Part shown: positions 16,724 to 64,000 of the stretch, in pieces
How positions within the stretch are numbered: the first letter of the stretch is position 1
How the letters are laid out: every line of letters begins with the position of its first letter
Virus record (IMG/VR): IMGVR_UViG_3300010885_003070
Location: 17,074 to 81,073 of that record
Strand: one strand, 5' to 3'
DNA length: 64,000 nt
Source: a virus
Program-made: the position numbers and the translations under genes
Notes under the pieces: generated by a model
Databases searched by the model: none
What the model saw: the letters and a program-made list of their open reading frames with translations, nothing else
Told to the model about the DNA's origin: nothing

Positions 16724-17310
16724 TATGCAGGCCTCACTAAGAATGCTTGAAAAAATGTAACCGCTGAGCCTGGTTGTATGCTTTGAGCATTATTTCCCTG
16801 AGCATATAGTTCAAAATAATCTGAAGTGCCATTGGCATAAGCAAGAGCAGATCCATTGGAACTATTACTATTTGTTCCGTTTCCTATTGAATCGACACCA
16901 TTTTTAAATGCAGATCCATTTTTATACAAATATGTTGTTAGTCGAGCGGTAGCGGCACCATTCTCAGCGTTAAATGTAAAAAGATAGTATCCAGCGACGT
17001 TAGGTGTAAATCTATAGTTTGTTGTGTTATCGTAACAATTTGCTGTATCAAATTCCTCAGTATTAATCTGTAGCTTTGTATATACACCAGCAGATACGCT
17101 TTGACCACCGATGTTATAAGCACTAAAAGCAGGACCAAATCCACCATAGAAACCTGATCTACTAATCATAGGTTGTGTAATAGTATTAGAATCCGCAGAG
17201 GTGATAACGTTACCTGTAATAGCAGGCAATGTAAGTGTGTTGGCTGTTGACATGTTTGGCACATCAATCGTTATTGAACCACCACCTGATGAGTTTAGTT
17301 TAATCGGCAT
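16723..17310 (-). CDS. C1q-like fibre protein
   Basis: 195 residues. The N-terminal ~40 residues (MPIKLNSSGGGSITIDV, TANTLTLPAITGNVI) are a short fibre lead that recurs widely in phages. The rest is C1q-like: CYDNTTNYRFTPNVAGYYLF, then GNGTNSNSSNGSALAYANG and VTFFQAFLVRPA, a standard closing strand. Diverged from the tandem trio at 12132-13868. TAATG junctions on both sides. Confidence 0.7.
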   Translation of the reverse strand: MPIKLNSSGGGSITIDVPNMSTANTLTLPAITGNVITSADSNTITQPMISRSGFYGGFGPAFSAYNIGGQSVSAGVYTKLQINTEEFDTANCYDNTTNYRFTPNVAGYYLFTFNAENGAATARLTTYLYKNGSAFKNGVDSIGNGTNSNSSNGSALAYANGTSDYFELYAQGNNAQSIQPGSAVTFFQAFLVRPA

Positions 17311-53543: not shown

Positions 53544-53762
53544 ATGGGTCATGACACTTTATCTAATCACATTAAGTCAAACTTTAACTTGATACATCAT
53601 CATAAGTGGAGCTTGAGTGAGATAGATGGAATGATGCCATGGGAGAAACACATATACGTGGAACTATTGAATGCGTATATCAAAGAACAAGAAGACCTGG
53701 CCAGACAAAAAGAAAATGAACACAAGAACATGATGAACCAACTCAACAGAAGAAGAATGTAA
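53544..53762 (+). CDS. Small baseplate-assembly partner protein
   Basis: 72 residues. HKWSLSEIDGMMPWEKHIYV carries the MPWE motif that follows gp26- or chaperone-type proteins in many contractile phages, where the small frame completes an assembly-chaperone pair. The remainder is a charged helix. It begins 2 nt after gp26 and ends in a TAATG overlap with the large hydrolase protein. Function is inferred from location and motif. Confidence 0.65.
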   Translation: MGHDTLSNHIKSNFNLIHHHKWSLSEIDGMMPWEKHIYVELLNAYIKEQEDLARQKENEHKNMMNQLNRRRM

Positions 53763-56692
53763 TGGCTTTCAACGTAGGTAAAAGTTCAAAAGATACTTTT
53801 AGACATCTAAAGAAATTGACACCTAGGCAGAGAGTTGATTATGTCAATAAGTCTGCTCAAGGCCCTGCTACCATTCTCACTCTGCTTACACCAGCAGAGT
53901 TTGCCGAGTTATTCCCAAAGTATTATCAAAAAGGTTTGCCAGATGTTTCCGGCTTTCGTGAGGCAATTACTAATCGATCTACACAGAAACAAGATGATAT
54001 TAACTTTGGTTTGTCACAAGGCGCTAAGACAGTTGATCAAGCCGAACAGTATGGACAGTGGCGCAGAAGATTTAACAAAGAACAACCTGGCACCACTACA
54101 TCAACTCTTGGTTCAACTGGTGGTGAGAAATCAATTTCAAATAAAGTAATGGCAAAAGAGGTATATAATTATCTCAAATCAAAAGGCGTAGATCATGTCC
54201 ATGCTATGGGCATTCTAGCAAACATGCAGGGCGAGTCCGCATTTAGACCAGGCATTCAACCTCCTGCCGATGTAATGCGTCGTGAAGGCGGACCATCTGG
54301 TGGATTGTTTCAGCATCATGATAATCCGAGCAGAGGTGAATATCGTTTTACCAACATGGTTAAAGCTGCTGGTGGTGAAGGTGTATGGCAGAAAAACTGG
54401 AAAGGTCAGATTGATTATGCGTTGACCGAACCTGATATGAAGAAATATCTAAGTCGGAAGATTACTGACGAGAGAGATGCCGTTAAAAGTTTTATAGCTG
54501 ATTTTGAAAGACCTGCTAACCCCGAAAGAGATGCTGTTCTAAGACAACAGTATCTAAAATCTATTTCAAGCGCAATAACAACCTCTGATCCACAATCATC
54601 TATGGGTGACATATCAAGAGTATCAACTAAGTCAGGCGGCTATTACGGCGAAGGTCCGAACGGCGAACAATGTGTTTCTTTGTCAAAACACTTTTCTGGT
54701 TTAGGTCCTGCTAGTAAATGGAATGTAAAAGAAGGTAATATCACAGCCGGTACTGTTATTGCTACTATGAACTATGGTAAGGGTGAACATCCTGGTGGCA
54801 TTGAACATAATAAAACGGCAGATGGTAAGTCACACTATCATACAGGCATTGCTCTATCCGCACCAAACTCAAATGGTGACGTTCTTATTCTAGAACAGTT
54901 CAATGGGCAGCCTGCCCGAGTTGCTATGGTCAATATTCATAACTATCGTGGCTCTGGCGAAAGAATGGGCGTCGTCGAAGGCGGCGAGCCAAGTGCTGGT
55001 ACAATGAAAGCAGTTGAGATTGCCAAAGGCCTAGCTAATCCAGATCAGTTAGCATTGATCGGTGGCACAGGCGAAGCACCAGCGCAAGCAACTCTTCAGG
55101 TTAAGTCAGTTCAGAAAGTACCTACAGCTAGTCCTACATCTATATCAACTGAACAGCAATCACAGTATCCAGCCGATCAACAGCCACAGCAACCAGCTAA
55201 CAAGCAAACTGCTACAGTTGAAAAGGCTGATAAGTCAATGAAGGCTCAAGAGTTATATAAGTTTGATCCTGACAAGTATTGGAACGAAGTCAAAACAAAA
55301 CAGCCAATGGCCGATAGTATGTTCTACGGCAAAGATAAAGTTATGCAGGAGACATATAAAGGCTTTGAAGATGCTCAGGCTGCTGGTGCTATCAAGTGGA
55401 ATAAGAAAACAAACGAGATACACATTCTCGATCCTAAACACGAAAAGGTTCAGCAAATCTATAAAGATATGCAGGACAATAACATTGATAGAAACGCCTT
55501 CTTATCAAAGAGTGAAGCTGGCGGCGCAGGAACAGCTAAGGTTCACAAAGTTAGAAAAGCTCCATTCGTTGAAACCTACAATGGCTTTCTACCTGATCTT
55601 AGAGAAGACATCGGTGGCATTACAGGACAGTGGGAGTCTGGTAGACATGGTGCTCGGGCTGCCCAAGGTGTAGAGTCTATTTCAACAGGTAAAAAAGATC
55701 CTGGTGGTGTATCATATGGTCGTCATCAGCTATCAAGTAAGAAAGGAACAATGGCTGAGTTTCTTAAATCAAAAGAAGCTGAAGCATTCCGATCACACTT
55801 TGGTGATATGAAACCAGGAACACCAAAGTTCAATGCCGCATATCAGAAAGTTGTCAGAGAGAATCCTCAGGCATTTGACAAAGCGCAGCATGATTTCATA
55901 GCTAGAACACATTACACACCATTTCTAAAGACTGCTGCCAGACTTGGATATAAAGTAGAAGATCCAAGAATCCAGGAAGCTGTATGGGGTGGCGGTGTTC
56001 AATTCAGAAACAACATGAGAAAAGTATTAAACAAGGCTAGCCATTCTGTTGGACAGTCTGTAGAAGATCAAGTCATGGCTATTGCTAAGGCTAAACAAGA
56101 AAGAGGGCCGCATATCAAAAACAGATATATGCCAGAAGCACAAGCTATTCTCGGACAGACACCTGGTGGCGGATTTGGAAAGTCTAATGTTCTTGATATG
56201 AGTAAGTATGAACAATATGCTATGGATCAAAAGAGTAAGAAAGCAACATTTATCGCACAACATCAAGCACCACAGGCACAGAAAGAACAAGTAGCATCAG
56301 CTAGATCAGTTGATCCATATGCTAGACCAGCGGCTGCGGCTGTGGATACAGGATCATCAGCTAAACAAGCATTTGATCGTATGAGAAACTTTAAGGCTGA
56401 ACCTGTTCAAAGACCACAGCCAGAGGTATCAACTGGTGTTTCTACTGCTCCGCCAGATGTTACTAGAGAGACAATGCAGCCTGTTACACCTGATAATAAA
56501 AATGCCATGAACATGCAGCAAGTGCCGCCAGATAGACCACAGAAGGAAACAGTTATCGATCCTTCATTGAATAGACAAGTGAGAGAGTTCCCAACAGCAT
56601 CATTAGAAAGAGCAATGGGTAAGGCGAGAGGATTTGAAACTGGAACTGGTGCTGACGGTCATCATCATAGCACTACATCATTAGGTCAATAA
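53762..56692 (+). CDS. Multidomain tail lysin/hub protein with three hydrolase-like domains
   Basis: 976 residues. Residues ~130-245 look like a phage tail lysozyme: MGILANMQGESAFRPGIQ, with E158 as catalytic candidate, then GGLFQHHD. Residues ~295-415 resemble an NlpC/P60-CHAP-type peptidase: C304 (GEQCVSLSKHF) and H358/H360 (SHYHTGIAL). Residues ~615-770 (ITGQWESGRHG with E about 625, GVSYGRHQLSSKKGTMAEFL) resemble the muramidase domain at the end of VgrG3-type spike proteins. Gln/Pro-rich linkers join them and the C-terminus is low complexity. Probably the peptidoglycan-piercing part of the hub, taking over the role of T4 gp5 lysozyme (inference). TAATG-coupled to the gene before. Confidence 0.8.
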   Translation: MAFNVGKSSKDTFRHLKKLTPRQRVDYVNKSAQGPATILTLLTPAEFAELFPKYYQKGLPDVSGFREAITNRSTQKQDDINFGLSQGAKTVDQAEQYGQWRRRFNKEQPGTTTSTLGSTGGEKSISNKVMAKEVYNYLKSKGVDHVHAMGILANMQGESAFRPGIQPPADVMRREGGPSGGLFQHHDNPSRGEYRFTNMVKAAGGEGVWQKNWKGQIDYALTEPDMKKYLSRKITDERDAVKSFIADFERPANPERDAVLRQQYLKSISSAITTSDPQSSMGDISRVSTKSGGYYGEGPNGEQCVSLSKHFSGLGPASKWNVKEGNITAGTVIATMNYGKGEHPGGIEHNKTADGKSHYHTGIALSAPNSNGDVLILEQFNGQPARVAMVNIHNYRGSGERMGVVEGGEPSAGTMKAVEIAKGLANPDQLALIGGTGEAPAQATLQVKSVQKVPTASPTSISTEQQSQYPADQQPQQPANKQTATVEKADKSMKAQELYKFDPDKYWNEVKTKQPMADSMFYGKDKVMQETYKGFEDAQAAGAIKWNKKTNEIHILDPKHEKVQQIYKDMQDNNIDRNAFLSKSEAGGAGTAKVHKVRKAPFVETYNGFLPDLREDIGGITGQWESGRHGARAAQGVESISTGKKDPGGVSYGRHQLSSKKGTMAEFLKSKEAEAFRSHFGDMKPGTPKFNAAYQKVVRENPQAFDKAQHDFIARTHYTPFLKTAARLGYKVEDPRIQEAVWGGGVQFRNNMRKVLNKASHSVGQSVEDQVMAIAKAKQERGPHIKNRYMPEAQAILGQTPGGGFGKSNVLDMSKYEQYAMDQKSKKATFIAQHQAPQAQKEQVASARSVDPYARPAAAAVDTGSSAKQAFDRMRNFKAEPVQRPQPEVSTGVSTAPPDVTRETMQPVTPDNKNAMNMQQVPPDRPQKETVIDPSLNRQVREFPTASLERAMGKARGFETGTGADGHHHSTTSLGQ

Positions 56693-56727: not shown

Positions 56728-57657
56728 TTAGTCATCAAGATCGGCTAGTTCTCGGAACATAGCCAAGTCTTCATCATCATCTTCTACAACTGGAGCCTTA
56801 GGTGCTGCCTTCTTAGCAACAGGCTTTGACTCGGTAAAAGGAACATCATCATCTTCTGTTACTACTGGTTTAGCTGTAGCACGTGGAGCACTATCACCAA
56901 AGCCAAGAACATCATTGAGACGAGCCTTTAGCTGATCATAAGACTTAAAGTTCTTTGGATCGATAATCTCTTTGAGAGAATACTCAGCCTTCCAAATCTT
57001 TTCAAGTTCTGCCTCATCTTCTGATAGCGGACCTGGTGCAAGGAATGTTGACTCATCATAGTTTGGAAAACCAGACTGACGGGTCATCTTCAACTTAAAG
57101 TTAGCACCCTGCCAAAGATCGAAAGGATTAACTGCCTTCTCCGACTCAAGGTCTGGGTTCATCATCTTTGTTAGCTTATCAAAGATTTTCTTACCATACT
57201 TGAATAGAAAGATTTTACCTTCATTTGATGGGTTCTTAGGATCACTAATAACCTGAATGTTTGACACATAATGAAGGCGGCGCTTTTGATCACGGGCCTG
57301 CTTGCGTTCTGGTGAGTTATCATCAGCCGAAGCATTCCATAGTGTAGAGTTATATTCAGAAACAGGATCTTTCTGACCAATAGTGGTGAGTGACTTTTCA
57401 ATATACCACTTACCGCTCAACTTGTTCTGGAACCCATGATCCCAATACTGAATCCATGGTAGAGCATCGTCACCATCAACGGCAGAGCCAGGAAGGAAAC
57501 GAATAACTGCTAGAGCATTACCAGCCTTATCAGGCGTTGGCTTCCAATAGTTATCTGTAGATGCGTCTCTATCATAGGTGGGTTTGTTGAGTTCATCAAC
57601 CTTCTTGAGAAGGCCACTGAAGTCTTTAGATTGTTTCTTGAGGTTAGCAAAGTTCAT
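56728..57657 (-). CDS. 32: Single-stranded DNA-binding protein gp32
   Basis: 309 residues (T4 301). Matches T4 gp32 in the OB-fold core: DHGFQNKLSGKWYIEKSLTT (T4 NHGFKKNGKWYIETCSST), ISDPKNPSNEGKIFLFKYGK, IFDKLTKMMNPD, GANFKLKMTRQSGFPNYDES. The acidic C-terminus (EDDDEDLAMFRELADLDD) is the partner-binding tail. The three cysteines that hold zinc in T4 are absent, replaced within SLTTIGQKDPVSEYN; cyanophage gp32 as I recall it reads similarly. CGGAGAAATAAT precedes the ATG. Neighbours gp59 and gp33 match the T4 gene order. Confidence 0.95.
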   Translation of the reverse strand: MNFANLKKQSKDFSGLLKKVDELNKPTYDRDASTDNYWKPTPDKAGNALAVIRFLPGSAVDGDDALPWIQYWDHGFQNKLSGKWYIEKSLTTIGQKDPVSEYNSTLWNASADDNSPERKQARDQKRRLHYVSNIQVISDPKNPSNEGKIFLFKYGKKIFDKLTKMMNPDLESEKAVNPFDLWQGANFKLKMTRQSGFPNYDESTFLAPGPLSEDEAELEKIWKAEYSLKEIIDPKNFKSYDQLKARLNDVLGFGDSAPRATAKPVVTEDDDVPFTESKPVAKKAAPKAPVVEDDDEDLAMFRELADLDD

Positions 57658-57957: not shown

Positions 57958-58551
57958 CTATTTAGTCATCTCGTTTTTAAGTATGCTTTTCATCTTCGCC
58001 TTATCATACTGTAGAAACGGTCTATACTTACTTATCTTTTTAGACACCTTACACCAAATGATATCTTCGCCATAATACTTATCAAACTTGCCAGTGTAGC
58101 CCAGAAAGTCATCAACAATGACCATCGTTTCTAGACTGATTTCCCGACGCAAGAAAAGCAATACAATACTAGGGTAGGCATTATCACTGACAATGAACGG
58201 CTCTCGAAAGCCCTTTCTAAAAGTTCTAGCCAAGTCATTGGTATAGTTATACGACAAACTCTGTCGCCGTCGCAGATAATCAGTGTATGTTCGCTTTGCT
58301 GTTTCATCTATTAGATCCGTTATGTATTGTTTCTCTTCAAGTAGATTAGCAATATAGAAATCACGCAACTCGGTAGCGTTATACTCTTTAGCCAGCTTCT
58401 CAAAGAAGAACTTATCATTCCTTTTTTGATAGGACTCCTTAGTTGCACGGAGTTTACCATGCATTTGGAAGAAGTCATAGCCTGACTTAGTGAAATGGGT
58501 CTTCAATGCTAAGAATAGCAAGTAAGCACCATAACCTGAAAAGTGTTTCAT
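57958..58551 (-). CDS. 59: Helicase loader gp59
   Basis: 197 residues (T4 217). ESYQKRNDKFFFEKLAKEYN with LRDFYIANLLEEKQYITDL aligns to T4 gp59 (AYQKRRDKYFFQKLSEKY, FISNLVANQDAWIGDI). The C-terminal SLETMVIVDDFLGYTGKFDK matches T4 SFETFILLDSFLNIIDKHD. gp59 loads the gp41 helicase onto gp32-coated forks. TAATG coupling with gp33 and position before gp32 reproduce the T4 33-59-32 order. Confidence 0.9.
   Translation of the reverse strand: MKHFSGYGAYLLFLALKTHFTKSGYDFFQMHGKLRATKESYQKRNDKFFFEKLAKEYNATELRDFYIANLLEEKQYITDLIDETAKRTYTDYLRRRQSLSYNYTNDLARTFRKGFREPFIVSDNAYPSIVLLFLRREISLETMVIVDDFLGYTGKFDKYYGEDIIWCKVSKKISKYRPFLQYDKAKMKSILKNEMTK
57959..57965 (-). promoter_or_regulatory. Late-promoter-like CTAAATA
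   Basis: Minus-strand CTAAATAGG overlaps the last codons and TAG of gp59, 31 nt before the 58-aa gene. Same stop-overlap arrangement as elsewhere in the window. It could add late transcription of the small gene and gp32. Confidence 0.35.
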
Positions 58552-58775
58552 TAGAAAGGTAGTTGTGCGGTGTTTGATCTCTTTAGATAGTGTAGGTCTT
58601 CAGCTTCTAGCTTGATCTTTGATTTGAGAACACCAGAGATTAGCTTGGCAGCCGTCTCTAGCTCAAAGCCAGTCTCCTCACAATACATAATAACAGCGTC
58701 AATGTATGGAATGTCTTTCATATAGACTAGCTCCTCAATGGCTAGACTAAACTTTTGCATATCGTCGGCGTTCAT
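58551..58775 (-). CDS. 33: Late transcription co-activator gp33
   Basis: 74 residues from the ATG at 58773-58775, chosen because GAGGA lies 6 nt before it; an ATG four codons upstream has no such site. IEELVYMKDIPYIDAVIMYC and LISGVLKSKIKLEAEDLHYL align with T4 gp33 (IEKMVEEFGMSYLEATTAFL, IPSGIIEKIQSEAIDENLL). T4 gp33 links RNA polymerase to the sliding clamp through its C-terminal hydrophobic residues; here the end TAQLPF could serve. It starts directly downstream of the tmRNA. Confidence 0.8.
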   Translation of the reverse strand: MNADDMQKFSLAIEELVYMKDIPYIDAVIMYCEETGFELETAAKLISGVLKSKIKLEAEDLHYLKRSNTAQLPF

Positions 58776-58838
58776 TTTGTTCCTCATAATGTAAAATTGC
58801 CACCACTTCTGTTTCTAGGCTGGTGGCCCACCCAATGA

Positions 58839-58883
58839 TTATGCTGCTAGAGCAAGATCAAATGATGCAAAGTTATCGTTAGC
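58839..58883 (-). other. tmRNA tag reading frame (ANDNFASFDLALAA)
   Basis: Resume codon GCT at 58881-58883, stop TAA at 58839-58841. ANDN start and LAA end match proteolysis tags of other tmRNAs; the LAA end is what ClpX recognises. TTAGGT precedes the resume codon, similar to the UAGUC determinant in E. coli tmRNA. Confidence 0.9.
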
Positions 58884-58947
58884 ACCTAACGTTTGCTTTC
58901 GGTCTCCTTGAACCCTTACTACGCCCGTCGAAACCCTGGTCGCCCCC

Positions 58948-59020
58948 ATCATAGTAACATCGGGTGCCTAAAGACTATTATAGGACTTATTACGGAATTG
59001 AACCGTGTCCGATGTTACTA
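58948..59020 (-). other. tmRNA intervening segment with 14-bp inverted repeat
   Basis: This 73-nt segment separates acceptor and coding pieces and would be removed in processing. Its ends form, with the CA of CCA, a perfect 14-bp inverted repeat (59009-59022 and 58950-58963) that extends the acceptor stem in the precursor. Inside, ACGG-TTCAATT-CCGT resembles a T arm. Confidence 0.8.
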
Positions 59021-59096
59021 TGGTGGAGGCGGGCGGAATCGAACCGCCGTCCGTAACGTCTATGCCGTTCCTCTCAACGACCTCAGCATAGTATTT

Positions 59097-59124
59097 ATTA
59101 TACAGCATTATTTTTGTTTGTCAA
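59097..59124 (-). promoter_or_regulatory. Consensus sigma70 promoter for the tmRNA
   Basis: TTGACA at 59119-59124 and TATAAT at 59097-59102, 16-nt spacer, minus strand. It lies inside the last codons of the adenylating-enzyme gene and would start transcription near 59090, at the beginning of the acceptor piece. Confidence 0.85.
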
Positions 59125-60606
59125 GCGGAATCGTTCAACCATACCAGCTAACTTGTCCTTATCTGCTTTGTTGCTGATAGTGGCATCATATAGTTCTGGC
59201 TCAAGTATAACATCGGCAAGAGTAACATTTCCATGATAGAATGTGTCTATCTCTTCCTTGATATGGCTTCTTTGTTCATATGCTACAACATCAGAGGTAA
59301 GAACATACAACTGATTATATACCTCATCAATGTATATCTCAAACTGATATCTTGTGGTATACTTCTCCACTATCTCAATGATGTCCAGTGGATTGATATC
59401 AATATCGTTTATCTTTTGTAATCTATTCTTACCGACAAAGTAATAGCCATCTGGCTTCTCATCAACAATATCATCAAAACAAATCTCATCTGTGTATGGC
59501 GTGGCTGTGTAGATACGTCCATCAGCTATTCTAGTCTTATAGAAACTATCAACAGTTGGCTTGCCGAGATACTTTGGATTAAAGTTATCCACATTATCAG
59601 AGTTGAGCCACATCATAAACACTGGACCACATACCTCACTACAACCAAATGGACTATAGATACTTTTCAGACTGCCTTCTTTGATTGCCTTACACCATTC
59701 AGGACTGATGAATGAAAGTATCATTACACTTGTGTTAGGCAGTTTGATATCACGATTAGCCATATGATTAATGATTTCATCTAGCACACCGCCATGGGTA
59801 CAGAATATTCTTGTTATACCATGCTTGACACAATCATTGACAAATCTTTCATACTCATCATATTGCTGGTCACCAGGCAACTTACCTTTACCAGAAATGC
59901 TGTTATAGAAATAGTGGTTCTTACATATTCTAAAAGACGGTAGAACAAGTGATAATGTCGCTCCGTGATTAAGTGAGGACAAATGAAGATAATGGTCATC
60001 TGGTTCATAGCCCAGTTCTTGCCCGTTATTACTAGAGAGATTATACAGGTATTCGTGCGAGTGTGCTATTAGTTTCGGAGTGCCAGTTGTGCCGCTACTA
60101 TTACACAATAGAGCAATATCACCTGGCTGTGCTAGTATTGGTGTTTCTTCAGTTGATCTAAACTTCTTTCTCTGTGTCTCCCATTCAATTGGACCATAAC
60201 CCAAAACAACCTTGGAGTTCTTTTGGTAATGTTTCATAGCAGTAGAAAGAATAGGACTAGCCAGATAAGATGTAAAGAAGATCATAAAGTCTAGAGGCAA
60301 ATGACAATTGCTCTTAGGACTCTGGCATTCTTTCTCGTTGTTTGGTCTGTGTAGAACGACCATACTCATACCAAGTTCAAAGGCAGCAAACTTGATAGCA
60401 GTTGAATGAATGTCAGATGGCATGATACATGTGCCAATCTTATCACCACGTTTAGCACCATGCGATAGAAGTTTGAGTTTCCAGTAATTGATAAACTCGC
60501 AGAGGTCTTGTTTAGTATATGTGTTAACCAAAACATCTGCTTTTCTGACATCAGCATGGATCACAATGTCATCTCGGATCCAATCTCTTGTGATTATCTT
60601 TGTCAT
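59098..60606 (-). CDS. ANL-superfamily adenylate-forming enzyme (AMP-binding)
   Basis: 502 residues, full ANL length. Residues 170-178 SSGTTGTPK form the A3 phosphate-binding loop; YSPFGCSEVCGP near residue 315 fits A5; DGRIYTATPYTDEICFDDIV and GYYFVGKNRLQKINDIDINP fit A7-A8 and the hinge before the small C-terminal domain. A Lys near the end (ISNKADKDKL) is a possible A10 lysine, but the surrounding motif is poor. These enzymes activate carboxylic acids as acyl-AMP and usually pass them to CoA or a carrier; neither partner is visible here. Rare in phages. A GAGGAG site precedes the ATG. Confidence 0.85.
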   Translation of the reverse strand: MTKIITRDWIRDDIVIHADVRKADVLVNTYTKQDLCEFINYWKLKLLSHGAKRGDKIGTCIMPSDIHSTAIKFAAFELGMSMVVLHRPNNEKECQSPKSNCHLPLDFMIFFTSYLASPILSTAMKHYQKNSKVVLGYGPIEWETQRKKFRSTEETPILAQPGDIALLCNSSGTTGTPKLIAHSHEYLYNLSSNNGQELGYEPDDHYLHLSSLNHGATLSLVLPSFRICKNHYFYNSISGKGKLPGDQQYDEYERFVNDCVKHGITRIFCTHGGVLDEIINHMANRDIKLPNTSVMILSFISPEWCKAIKEGSLKSIYSPFGCSEVCGPVFMMWLNSDNVDNFNPKYLGKPTVDSFYKTRIADGRIYTATPYTDEICFDDIVDEKPDGYYFVGKNRLQKINDIDINPLDIIEIVEKYTTRYQFEIYIDEVYNQLYVLTSDVVAYEQRSHIKEEIDTFYHGNVTLADVILEPELYDATISNKADKDKLAGMVERFRLTNKNNAV

Positions 60607-60669: not shown

Positions 60670-60789
60670 TTAGTTGCATGGCCTACTAGTCGTGTCCCGT
60701 ATAATGCACTCACCGACGGTCGCCACCACACATCCAGACAAACCCAGACAAAGAAACACCATGGCAATAGCGAGATATACTTTTCTCAT
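60670..60789 (-). CDS. Small lipoprotein, unknown
   Basis: 39 residues, found by hand. The ATG overlaps the stop of the exonuclease gene (ATGA). MRKVYLAIAMVFLCLGLSGC is a typical lipoprotein signal: basic start, hydrophobic core, lipobox LSGC with C20 as the lipidated residue. The mature part has only ~20 residues with two more cysteines (C28, C38). The size recalls Rz1-type outer-membrane spanins, but there is no proline-rich stretch and no partner is seen, so the role is open. The 63 nt after it carry only the next gene's leader. Confidence 0.7.
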   Translation of the reverse strand: MRKVYLAIAMVFLCLGLSGCVVATVGECIIRDTTSRPCN

Positions 60790-61466
60790 AACGGATGCTC
60801 CAATCTAAATTGTTTAATCTTATTGACTAACTCAGGTATATACTCACTACGTTGTTTCACAAAGACCTGAGGATCTTCGTTATCAACTGATATCAGTACC
60901 ACAATCTGCTTTGCCTTGATACCTGTCATCTCTTCATACATCAAAGAGTAACAGGTACATTGTTCAAAGTAGTTTAGGATCCACTCTTCTCTCTTGGTTC
61001 TCAAAGATGTCTTAAAGTCAATAACAGAAGGTACACCGTCAAACTCGGCAATACAATCAACTTGACCTGCGAGACCGAGAGTTTCGCTATAGAGCATAGT
61101 TTCCAAATAGTGAACATTGTCAATCCTATCAACGATGGGTACAAATTGGCGAAACGCATGATGCATATCTGGCATCACATTTTCGTCTAAAAAACTGCTC
61201 CGCTCCTGATTTGAGAGATAAGATTCCATAAGCGAATGAAATTTTGTACCTCTTCTACTTGCTCGTCCTGATATCTTATTCGCTTCTTCTTCCCCCACTT
61301 TAGCCCTCCATTTGGCAATGGAGTCGCCTTTGAAGTGGGATAAAAAAGTTGTGACGGACGGTAACTTTTTTCCGTTTGGTGAGATGTAGTATCGCTTGCC
61401 ATTATATTCTTCTCTCTTTAGATTTATCAGATAGTGGTCTTGGTTTAGATGATTAAAGGTTTTCAA
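60786..61466 (-). CDS. PD-(D/E)XK exonuclease (MGME1/Cas4-like)
   Basis: 226 residues. KKLPSVTTFLSHF and RRGTKFHSLMESYL (the GTxxH helix) precede LGLAGQVDCIAEFDGVPSVI with DFKTS, giving the D...D-x-K catalytic set of the PD-(D/E)XK fold. FEQCTCYSLMYEEMTGIKAK supplies the downstream Gln-containing helix. This is the family of cyanophage exonucleases related to the mitochondrial MGME1 nuclease, acting on single-stranded or flap DNA in replication and recombination. ATGA overlaps on both sides place it in an operon with its neighbours. Confidence 0.85.
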   Translation of the reverse strand: MKTFNHLNQDHYLINLKREEYNGKRYYISPNGKKLPSVTTFLSHFKGDSIAKWRAKVGEEEANKISGRASRRGTKFHSLMESYLSNQERSSFLDENVMPDMHHAFRQFVPIVDRIDNVHYLETMLYSETLGLAGQVDCIAEFDGVPSVIDFKTSLRTKREEWILNYFEQCTCYSLMYEEMTGIKAKQIVVLISVDNEDPQVFVKQRSEYIPELVNKIKQFRLEHPL

Positions 61467-62040: not shown

Positions 62041-62583
62041 TTATTTGCGATTAGGATTCTGATGATCTATACCTTTACCTGTCGTAAATGACGGCCGCAT
62101 ACTCACAGGTTTCCTTGGATTGAATTCCGTTTGAGCAGGCGATTCTGGATTATTATATCTGGTTTTACCGACGTTGGCAACCCTACCCATACCAGGATCA
62201 TTGGATTGATTTGTTCCTTTGATGATAGTTTTCCTCTTTGAGCGAAGGGCTACGGAATCTTGATCGTATTTCTTACCTAACTCTTCCATATCTCTGCGGA
62301 ATGCTTTTGTATCTTTCTTATTTGTTCCTTTAGCGGCCACATAGCGAGACTGTTCGCCTTTATCTAACCACTTTCCTTCAGTTTTGCGGAATCCATATCC
62401 TTTGGAACGTAGATCGGAATCAAAAGATTTCATTCTTTGTTTGTTTTCCGTATCAGACAAATGTGAGCGCCAAGCTGTAATTCCGGCGGAAGCACGACCT
62501 TCTTTTTCGTGCTTATGAACCCTAGCCAAAGGATTACCTTCTTCTAGTTCTTTTTCTTGAAGATATTGAAAAAATGATAGCAT
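62041..62583 (-). CDS. Basic protein of unknown function
   Basis: 180 residues from the ATG at 62581-62583, which follows the upstream stop by one base; a longer frame starting 23 codons earlier overlaps the virion gene and is rejected. MLSFFQYLQEKELEEGNPLA begins it; RMKSFDSDLRSKGYGFRKTE with GKW is a block I recall in uncharacterised marine-phage proteins. The protein is very basic and Lys/Arg/Asn-rich throughout, suggesting nucleic-acid binding or packaging in the head (inference). Confidence 0.6.
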   Translation of the reverse strand: MLSFFQYLQEKELEEGNPLARVHKHEKEGRASAGITAWRSHLSDTENKQRMKSFDSDLRSKGYGFRKTEGKWLDKGEQSRYVAAKGTNKKDTKAFRRDMEELGKKYDQDSVALRSKRKTIIKGTNQSNDPGMGRVANVGKTRYNNPESPAQTEFNPRKPVSMRPSFTTGKGIDHQNPNRK

Positions 62584-62584
62584 G

Positions 62585-64000
62585 TTAGTAAATCTCTCTC
62601 CATTGAATGCCTGCCCATACATCGGATGTTCCGCCAATCGCTTGAATAGCAACTACATATATTTCGGAGTTGGATGATGCGATGTTTTGAGTAATAAAGT
62701 TTTTCTTCGCATTACTTGGATTATTGATAGGTGATGTGCCAGTTCCTTTGCCAGAACCACCAGGACTGCTTGTGCCAACAATACCATTCTCCATCTCATC
62801 ACCACCCACCATAGCAGTTCCTGTTAGATTATACTCAACTGCTGAGTTGGTGTCAGCACTAATCCATGTTGTGTTAGCAAGCGTTAGTCCAGCAGTATTG
62901 GCTAACTTAATAAGTTTCCAATATGCTGGATAGTTTTCAGCATACACATTTATATTGCCCATACGAACGGTAACTCTGTTTGGATATGTTCTAAAGTTAT
63001 TCTTTAGACGAATTGCTATAAGAGGATAGTTACCGCTTGCTGTTGTTACTGATCGTGCCGCACTACCTGTTGTAATAGCCCAGTCAATACCACTCTCAAT
63101 ATATCCACCTTCTGAAATAACAGTAGAACAAATTTGGTCAAAGTAAGCACCAGTGGTGGCACCAGTGTTTCTAATCTCACAGCGAACTGGTAGATTAGGA
63201 TTACTCATATAAACGGTTGGTAAGAAATTGCTGTTATAGAACTCATGTGCTACAATTAGATTACCATTATATACGAAACCTGTTCTTACACGACCAACAC
63301 CAAGCCATTGAAAGTCGGTCCAGAAGATTTGTGTATTGCTGATATCCATATTAAAACTACCAACGTTACCTGTTACAGTACCAGTGATAGATGTATTACA
63401 AGTATCCATATTCCATTGTGCTTGTGGTACTCTGCGCTCGACTATTGTACCACTTGTGTCCGATCTAATAACCATACTTAATGTGCTATTGCCTGCTTGC
63501 TCAAAGTAGATACCATTGTTAGCATCAAAGTAACCGGTTCTCTTTGTTACGTTAGCAGTAGCATTATAGAAATTGATTGTTGATTTGATTAGCTGACTTT
63601 TACCAGGCATATAGTTGTGATATTGTTTTGTCTGGTGAATAGCATAACTTGTTGGACTATTGTTTGTTGATAATCTGGCTGCTGCTTGATTAGATAGGTG
63701 GATGACATTAGCACCGGGACCTAATTCATCAATAAAGTTTGGATCAAGACCGTATGTGTGCTTATAGTCACCAAGCGTAAACCCTTCTGATACTCTCATT
63801 CTACCAAAAGCATCAACAGCACCGGCAACTGGAGTTGAGGTTACTGTGCCTGTAATAGCAGCGGTGACTGGTAGAGGATTTGCTGTATTGATAGCAGCAC
63901 CTGTGCTTTGGAAGATTCTAACATTACCGGTAACATTAGCTGTAAGTGGATTACCAATGTTTACTGTACCGGTTACACCTACGTTACCACCAATAGGCAT
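62585..64000 (-). CDS. Virion structural protein, possibly incomplete at window edge
   Basis: 471 residues to an ATG at the last bases of the window; the true start may lie outside. GNVGVTGTVNIGNPLTANVT is a short beta lead. FGRMRVSEGFTLGDYKHTYG, then GYFDANNGIYFEQAGN, QTKQYHNYMPGKSQLI and DISNTQIFWTDFQWLGVGRV, align by eye with the centre of the 980-residue protein at 19089-22031 (GMFDDQNGIFWEFDGN, MQMMAIQFSWYGAGFIDYMV). The shared domain is known from large structural proteins of T4-like marine phages. Its exact place in the virion is unknown. Confidence 0.75.
   Translation of the reverse strand: MPIGGNVGVTGTVNIGNPLTANVTGNVRIFQSTGAAINTANPLPVTAAITGTVTSTPVAGAVDAFGRMRVSEGFTLGDYKHTYGLDPNFIDELGPGANVIHLSNQAAARLSTNNSPTSYAIHQTKQYHNYMPGKSQLIKSTINFYNATANVTKRTGYFDANNGIYFEQAGNSTLSMVIRSDTSGTIVERRVPQAQWNMDTCNTSITGTVTGNVGSFNMDISNTQIFWTDFQWLGVGRVRTGFVYNGNLIVAHEFYNSNFLPTVYMSNPNLPVRCEIRNTGATTGAYFDQICSTVISEGGYIESGIDWAITTGSAARSVTTASGNYPLIAIRLKNNFRTYPNRVTVRMGNINVYAENYPAYWKLIKLANTAGLTLANTTWISADTNSAVEYNLTGTAMVGGDEMENGIVGTSSPGGSGKGTGTSPINNPSNAKKNFITQNIASSNSEIYVVAIQAIGGTSDVWAGIQWREIY

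Follow-up and report, generated by a model that had tools for sequence, protein, structure and literature searches.

Two-piece tmRNAs have been described in phages. The OM43 phage Melnitz is reported to encode one upstream of a transcription coactivator and to have a glutamine riboswitch at the tmRNA, and the survey in the same study counted 53 phage two-piece tmRNAs (PMC9004378). In the SAR11 phage Mosig (MT647606), a tmRNA is annotated directly upstream of gp33. Homing endonuclease genes are also known from tmRNA genes: group I introns with LAGLIDADG endonucleases occur there, with the self-splicing intron located in the T loop (PMC11915505). The available portions of a 2025 tmRNA database paper (97,179 sequences) name group I introns as the sole location of endonuclease genes, and the oddities of the intervening segment (IVS) mentioned in these portions are a tRNA-Ala and a repetitive element only. 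The T4-type homing endonucleases I-TevI, mobE, and segB have hairpin-controlled late promoters (PMC2988022).

Here we analyze a 64,000-nucleotide stretch (the window, positions 17,074 to 81,073) of the IMG/VR virus record IMGVR_UViG_3300010885_003070, an 81,073-base fragment. The window contains a complete, circularly permuted two-piece tmRNA gene on the minus strand, from its promoter through the 3' pseudoknot (59124-58799). Since Melnitz, Mosig, and the 53 surveyed cases (PMC9004378) precede it, the gene is not the first of its kind in a phage.

Architecture of the Window tmRNA Gene

The acceptor piece (59021-59090, start approximate, minus strand as for all parts of the gene) comprises a 5' pairing segment, a T arm (59048-59032) with 5/5 pairs in the T stem, the 3' acceptor strand CGCCTCC (59031-59025), and a terminal, encoded ACCA (59024-59021). 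It is followed by a 73-nt IVS (58948-59020), which carries no HNH ORF in the window and is predicted to be absent from the mature tmRNA. At the IVS ends, a 14-bp inverted repeat (59022-59009 paired with 58963-58950) stacks onto the acceptor stem and extends beyond it, a feature that the first-pass annotation had not described. A T-arm-like hairpin, ACGGTTCAATTCCGT, is found inside this repeat (59006-58992, minus strand). The coding piece (58839-58947) starts with GGGGGCGACC at 58947. Its 5' acceptor strand GGGGGCG (58947-58941) pairs with the 3' strand at 7/7 positions, including G3-U70, and is followed by a D-like TTCGACGGG, a resume region, and the tag reading frame ANDNFASFDLALAA with the stop codon TAA (58883-58839). 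The frame has a resume site and ends in a small hydrophobic degron. In the 3' H-type pseudoknot (58799-58838), GGG (58833-58831) pairs with CCT (58819-58817) and GCCACCA (58827-58821) with TGGTGGC (58805-58799); the conserved AACAGAA loop is present as in alpha_tmRNA, and TTTT comes after. The window copy thereby shows the hallmarks of a permuted tmRNA, namely an acceptor half with T arm before the coding half, a paired acceptor stem, G3-U70, and an encoded CCA. A first-pass annotation of the letters had described these parts together with the complete tag frame, and all of them are borne out.

The Rfam tmRNA_permuted model (RF04321) matches the locus over its complete length (1-213) with 96.3 bits (gathering cut-off 47, E 2e-17), and alpha_tmRNA (RF01849) passes narrowly with 55.6 bits (cut-off 50, E 1.1e-12). 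Because both matches lie above the gathering thresholds, a chance origin is excluded. The RF04321 score is below the 141-167 bits of bacterial alpha matches, which are the best-scoring among the matches listed. The first-pass annotation had named the alpha_tmRNA model and ARAGORN as checks on its claim: the former agrees, and the latter returns no match here at default settings but at -ps80 calls the locus "Permuted" and reads the same tag (ANDNFASFDLALAA).

The gene has its own predicted promoter, a perfect sigma-70 consensus TTGACA-N16-TATAAT (59097-59124, minus strand; -35 at 59124-59119, -10 at 59102-59097, 16-nt spacer), as had been proposed at first pass. Only two perfect TTGACA-N15-19-TATAAT elements exist in the 64-kb window, the other one (57748, minus strand) being located upstream of gp32. 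The -10 element of the tmRNA promoter runs into AATAAATA, which has one mismatch to the T4 late octamer TATAAATA; the octamer itself is present at the matching place in many relatives. In the window, TATAAATA is found at four positions only (39786, 31535, 28820, and 14815), all on the minus strand, and three of these are just upstream of ORF starts (39751, 28787, and 14800), so T4-like late promoters are likely in use in this phage.

Pfam and PHROGs searches confirm the setting next to gp33-gp59-gp32 in this virus record that the first reading had assigned. A gp33-like late-transcription coactivator is encoded directly downstream of the tmRNA (58551-58787; PF16805 2.8e-21, phrog_254 3.2e-22), followed by a gp59-like helicase loader (57958-58551; PF08993/PF08994, phrog_269) and a gp32-like single-strand DNA-binding protein (56728-57657; PF08804 2.6e-41, phrog_224), all on the minus strand. 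Upstream and on the same strand are an AMP-binding-enzyme-like ORF, whose end overlaps the tmRNA promoter (59098-60606; PF00501 5.4e-17), and a PD-(D/E)XK exonuclease (60786-61466; phrog_298 2.9e-73). Two further ORFs lie nearby. One (62041-62652, minus strand) matches S-adenosylmethionine lyase PF23780 (31.1 bits, cut-off 28) and is a possible anti-restriction gene; the other (53762-56692, plus strand) encodes 976 amino acids with phage tail lysozyme and VgrG3-like C-terminal domains. A blastn comparison of the tmRNA locus with phage records returned short matches only (33-42 bases).

Conservation across Related Phages

Among 48 records with a related gp32, a tmRNA scores above the cut-off in 23, and seven show two weak halves ∼500 bases apart; not all related records show a tmRNA gene. 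We parsed 29 distinct phage tmRNAs, including that of the window, with a finder that required at least 6/7 acceptor pairs and did not impose G3-U70. The acceptor stem is 7/7 paired and G3-U70 is present in 29/29, and the T stem is 100% paired throughout. Both acceptor features were counted in this set only, as the wider finder used for the HNH and tag survey imposed 7/7 pairing and G3-U70. In the acceptor stem, 40 cells changed on both sides, compared with 12.2 in shuffles, and the IVS end helix, which was not used for selection, is 90% paired with 63 double-change cells compared with 18.9 expected (0/1000 shuffles); as the shuffles ignore relatedness, these counts are supportive and do not represent probabilities. 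Every phage tmRNA with an AACAGA motif (40/40) shows a 3' pseudoknot stem, for which the search selects the best candidate, and the arms have 28 different sequences. Five other relatives have the identical tag ANDNFASFDLALAA but a different acceptor stem, T arm, or IVS. Taken together, covariance models, ARAGORN in its relaxed setting, and comparative covariation confirm at the sequence level the permuted two-piece tmRNA that had been called at first pass.

Proposed Function and Host

We consider it likely that the phage has a functional ssrA gene of the permuted alpha type at this locus, with processing, charging, tagging, and ribosome rescue as follows. Host RNA polymerase would generate one tmRNA precursor, from which host tRNA-processing enzymes would cut out the IVS, folded as a long hairpin atop the acceptor stem, and the acceptor and coding pieces would stay paired. 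Host AlaRS could then recognize G3-U70 and alanylate the acceptor piece, and the charged phage tmRNA would be brought to stalled ribosomes by host SmpB. These would switch to the tag frame and add ANDNFASFDLALAA, an ALAA-ending degradation tag. In this way, the supply of available ribosomes may be maintained as mRNAs are cleaved in the course of a T4-like infection. The processing, charging, and tagging steps and the benefit to the phage are what we infer; what we observe is the sequence with its pairing and covariation, the synteny, and the lack of a detected phage SmpB. No SmpB gene was found in the window's phage record or in 23 related records by a search that found one in 10/14 control genomes, and the phage thus presumably borrows the SmpB of its host; as the record is an 81-kb fragment, an SmpB gene or clues to the host may lie elsewhere. 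A phage-borne ribosome rescue gene suggests that phages face a non-stop mRNA problem of their own when transcripts are destroyed during infection.

For Melnitz, tagging of host proteins has been proposed (PMC9004378). It seems improbable to us that the main role of the window tmRNA is the tagging of host proteins for destruction, be it for amino acid recycling or for removal of defence factors, instead of ribosome rescue. The parsed phage tags are varied, nearly all ending in AA or VA and most in ALAA (a few odd relatives have uncertain tags, e.g. L142, read by ARAGORN as AKANIASEMALAA), which would suit such a role. In addition, a DNA pattern for ANDNxAx[F/Y][D/E]xALAA and close variants matched no bacterial genome in our collection, and the window tag is therefore not simply copied from a known host. 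However, tagging acts on stalled ribosomes whatever their origin, we see no mechanism that would select host proteins, and the window tag resembles alphaproteobacterial ones. A looser tag pattern retrieves mostly Alphaproteobacteria (Rhodobacterales, Rhizobiales, and Caulobacterales), and the nearest tags are those of Asticcacaulis (ANDNFASDQALAA/ANDNFASDVALAA), a lead to the host rather than proof of it. The tmRNA type had at first been taken to point to an alphaproteobacterial host. We regard it as weak evidence, because Melnitz has an alpha-type tmRNA and infects OM43, which is not an alphaproteobacterium (PMC9004378).

HNH ORFs in the IVS of Related tmRNAs

Two of the seven gp32-related records with split halves were inspected first and both have an HNH ORF between the tmRNA halves; the same ORF was subsequently found in 7/7. 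Scans with the HNH protein yielded 15 distinct tmRNAs with an intact sense HNH ORF (131-158 amino acids) in an IVS of 464-531 nt; two types among these are located upstream of gp33 in the gp32-defined lineage of the window. Some HNH-bearing types recur in contigs from different metagenome datasets and are thus unlikely to be assembly errors. The ORFs are putatively homing-endonuclease-like, a family assignment made by profile matches (phrog_655 "homing endonuclease," 6.7e-15; Pfam HNH 20.6 bits, just under the cut-off of 21.4).

The IVS end helix is kept in 15/15 HNH-bearing tmRNAs (11-18 bp, compared with a mean of 4.9 in shuffled IVS). The HNH ORF stops one base before G1 of the coding piece in 9/15 and 12 bases before it in 1/15, and runs 12-27 bases into the coding piece in 5/15. 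Its leader contains the late-promoter octamer TATAAATA in 11/15 and a CTAAATA variant in 2/15, each in a predicted hairpin before the HNH start codon. Such a hairpin over the late promoter, immediately ahead of the start codon, would allow little translation of read-through RNA.

Standard searches largely overlook these genes. ARAGORN at default settings detects 0/15 HNH-bearing tmRNAs as they stand, 12/15 after the insert is trimmed, and 15/15 trimmed at -ps85, with the same tags except for a shorter reading of one (L375). Most HNH-bearing copies searched with the Rfam model fall below the cut-off, often as two weak halves. HNH-bearing tmRNAs are hence probably missing from databases.

Alleles with and without the ORF can be compared directly: L007 (no HNH) and L020 (HNH) have near-identical tmRNA flanks and differ as a block, which comprises both strands of the inner acceptor stem plus the IVS. 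Acceptor stem and IVS may thus move together, which would preserve pairing, and the HNH protein may spread by homing. The window tmRNA is the HNH-free form of this variable IVS site.

HNH relatives are also located beside a tmRNA in other layouts, and a permuted tmRNA match is present in 24/50 HNH-bearing contigs. In L126 and L142 (and L124), an HNH ORF on the opposite strand is flanked by the tmRNA and, at its other end, by a second tmRNA piece that is partial or acceptor-only; this looks as though an insertion had duplicated or trapped part of the tmRNA gene. In L125, L126, L127, L128, L136, and L142, HNH ORFs start ∼65-90 bp upstream of the tmRNA and point away from it; those of L127, L128, and L136 have a C-terminal module different from the IVS type.

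With somewhat less confidence than for ribosome rescue, we favor the view that a family of HNH homing endonucleases in T4-like phages has the IVS as its dedicated home. Such an endonuclease would need no intron, because host tRNA processing would remove the IVS and the ORF with it, and the RNA would stay functional, because the cassette would replace both inner acceptor strands along with the IVS. The HNH-free window copy would then represent a potential target. One could go further and regard the tmRNA largely as a passenger, kept as the home of a mobile HNH element in a place where inserts are tolerated, and of no help to the phage; the repeated occurrence of HNH ORFs in or beside the gene, including the tmRNA-bearing HNH contigs above, would be expected if this were so. 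We find this very unlikely. Most parsed tmRNAs, the window's among them, have no HNH insert and have nevertheless retained acceptor pairing, G3-U70, the tag frame, and the pseudoknot, whereas a passenger would decay, and HNH-free lineages already give an indication that the tmRNA is under purifying selection. Given the covariance-model E value and the covariation across relatives, it is hardly credible that the window locus is a tmRNA-like sequence that is decaying or due to chance, although the negative default ARAGORN run and the modest score might speak for this.

Comparison with Known Systems

Both Melnitz (compared by its description) and Mosig resemble the window in having a permuted tmRNA directly upstream of the gp33 coactivator in a T4-like phage. 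Like the window, Mosig also has a PD-(D/E)XK protein shortly upstream of the tmRNA as well as an IVS end helix, but its tag differs, as does its IVS, which is 44 nt long (73 nt in the window) and contains no HNH ORF. The glutamine riboswitch reported for Melnitz has no counterpart in the window at Rfam gathering thresholds.

The permuted tmRNAs of Alphaproteobacteria (RF01849, RF04321) and the phage copies have gene order, G3-U70 acceptor stem, tag type, and 3' pseudoknot motif in common, and the phage copies score lower than the bacterial ones that are best-scoring among the matches listed. An IVS helix is found in some bacterial alpha tmRNAs as well, and we rejected it as a phage-specific feature. 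All IVS with an HNH ORF that we observed belong to phage relatives: in a comparison with 289 Alphaproteobacteria, the bacterial matches listed, which are the best-scoring ones, span ∼184-351 nt, too short to contain an HNH ORF, and HNH-bearing bacterial copies may exist beyond these.

The phage two-piece tmRNA itself is already known. For an HNH homing-endonuclease-like ORF nested in a tmRNA IVS, we found no prior description in the open-licence literature, and two IVS HNH ORF queries against 50,697 sequenced phage records returned no relative covering at least 80% of the query. As in I-TevI, mobE, and segB (PMC2988022), the start codon of the IVS ORFs is preceded closely by a hairpin that includes the late-promoter octamer (TATAAATA); unlike the IVS ORFs, none of the three has been described within a tmRNA. 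The group I intron/LAGLIDADG tmRNAs (PMC11915505) likewise harbor, inside the tmRNA gene, a homing endonuclease gene that does not remain in the mature RNA. That arrangement requires a self-splicing intron located in the T loop, whereas in the relatives of the window phage the HNH ORF is in an IVS that would be discarded by tRNA processing. Judging from these relatives, the discarded spacer of the permuted form may offer mobile DNA a way to reside within a tmRNA gene that needs no self-splicing intron.
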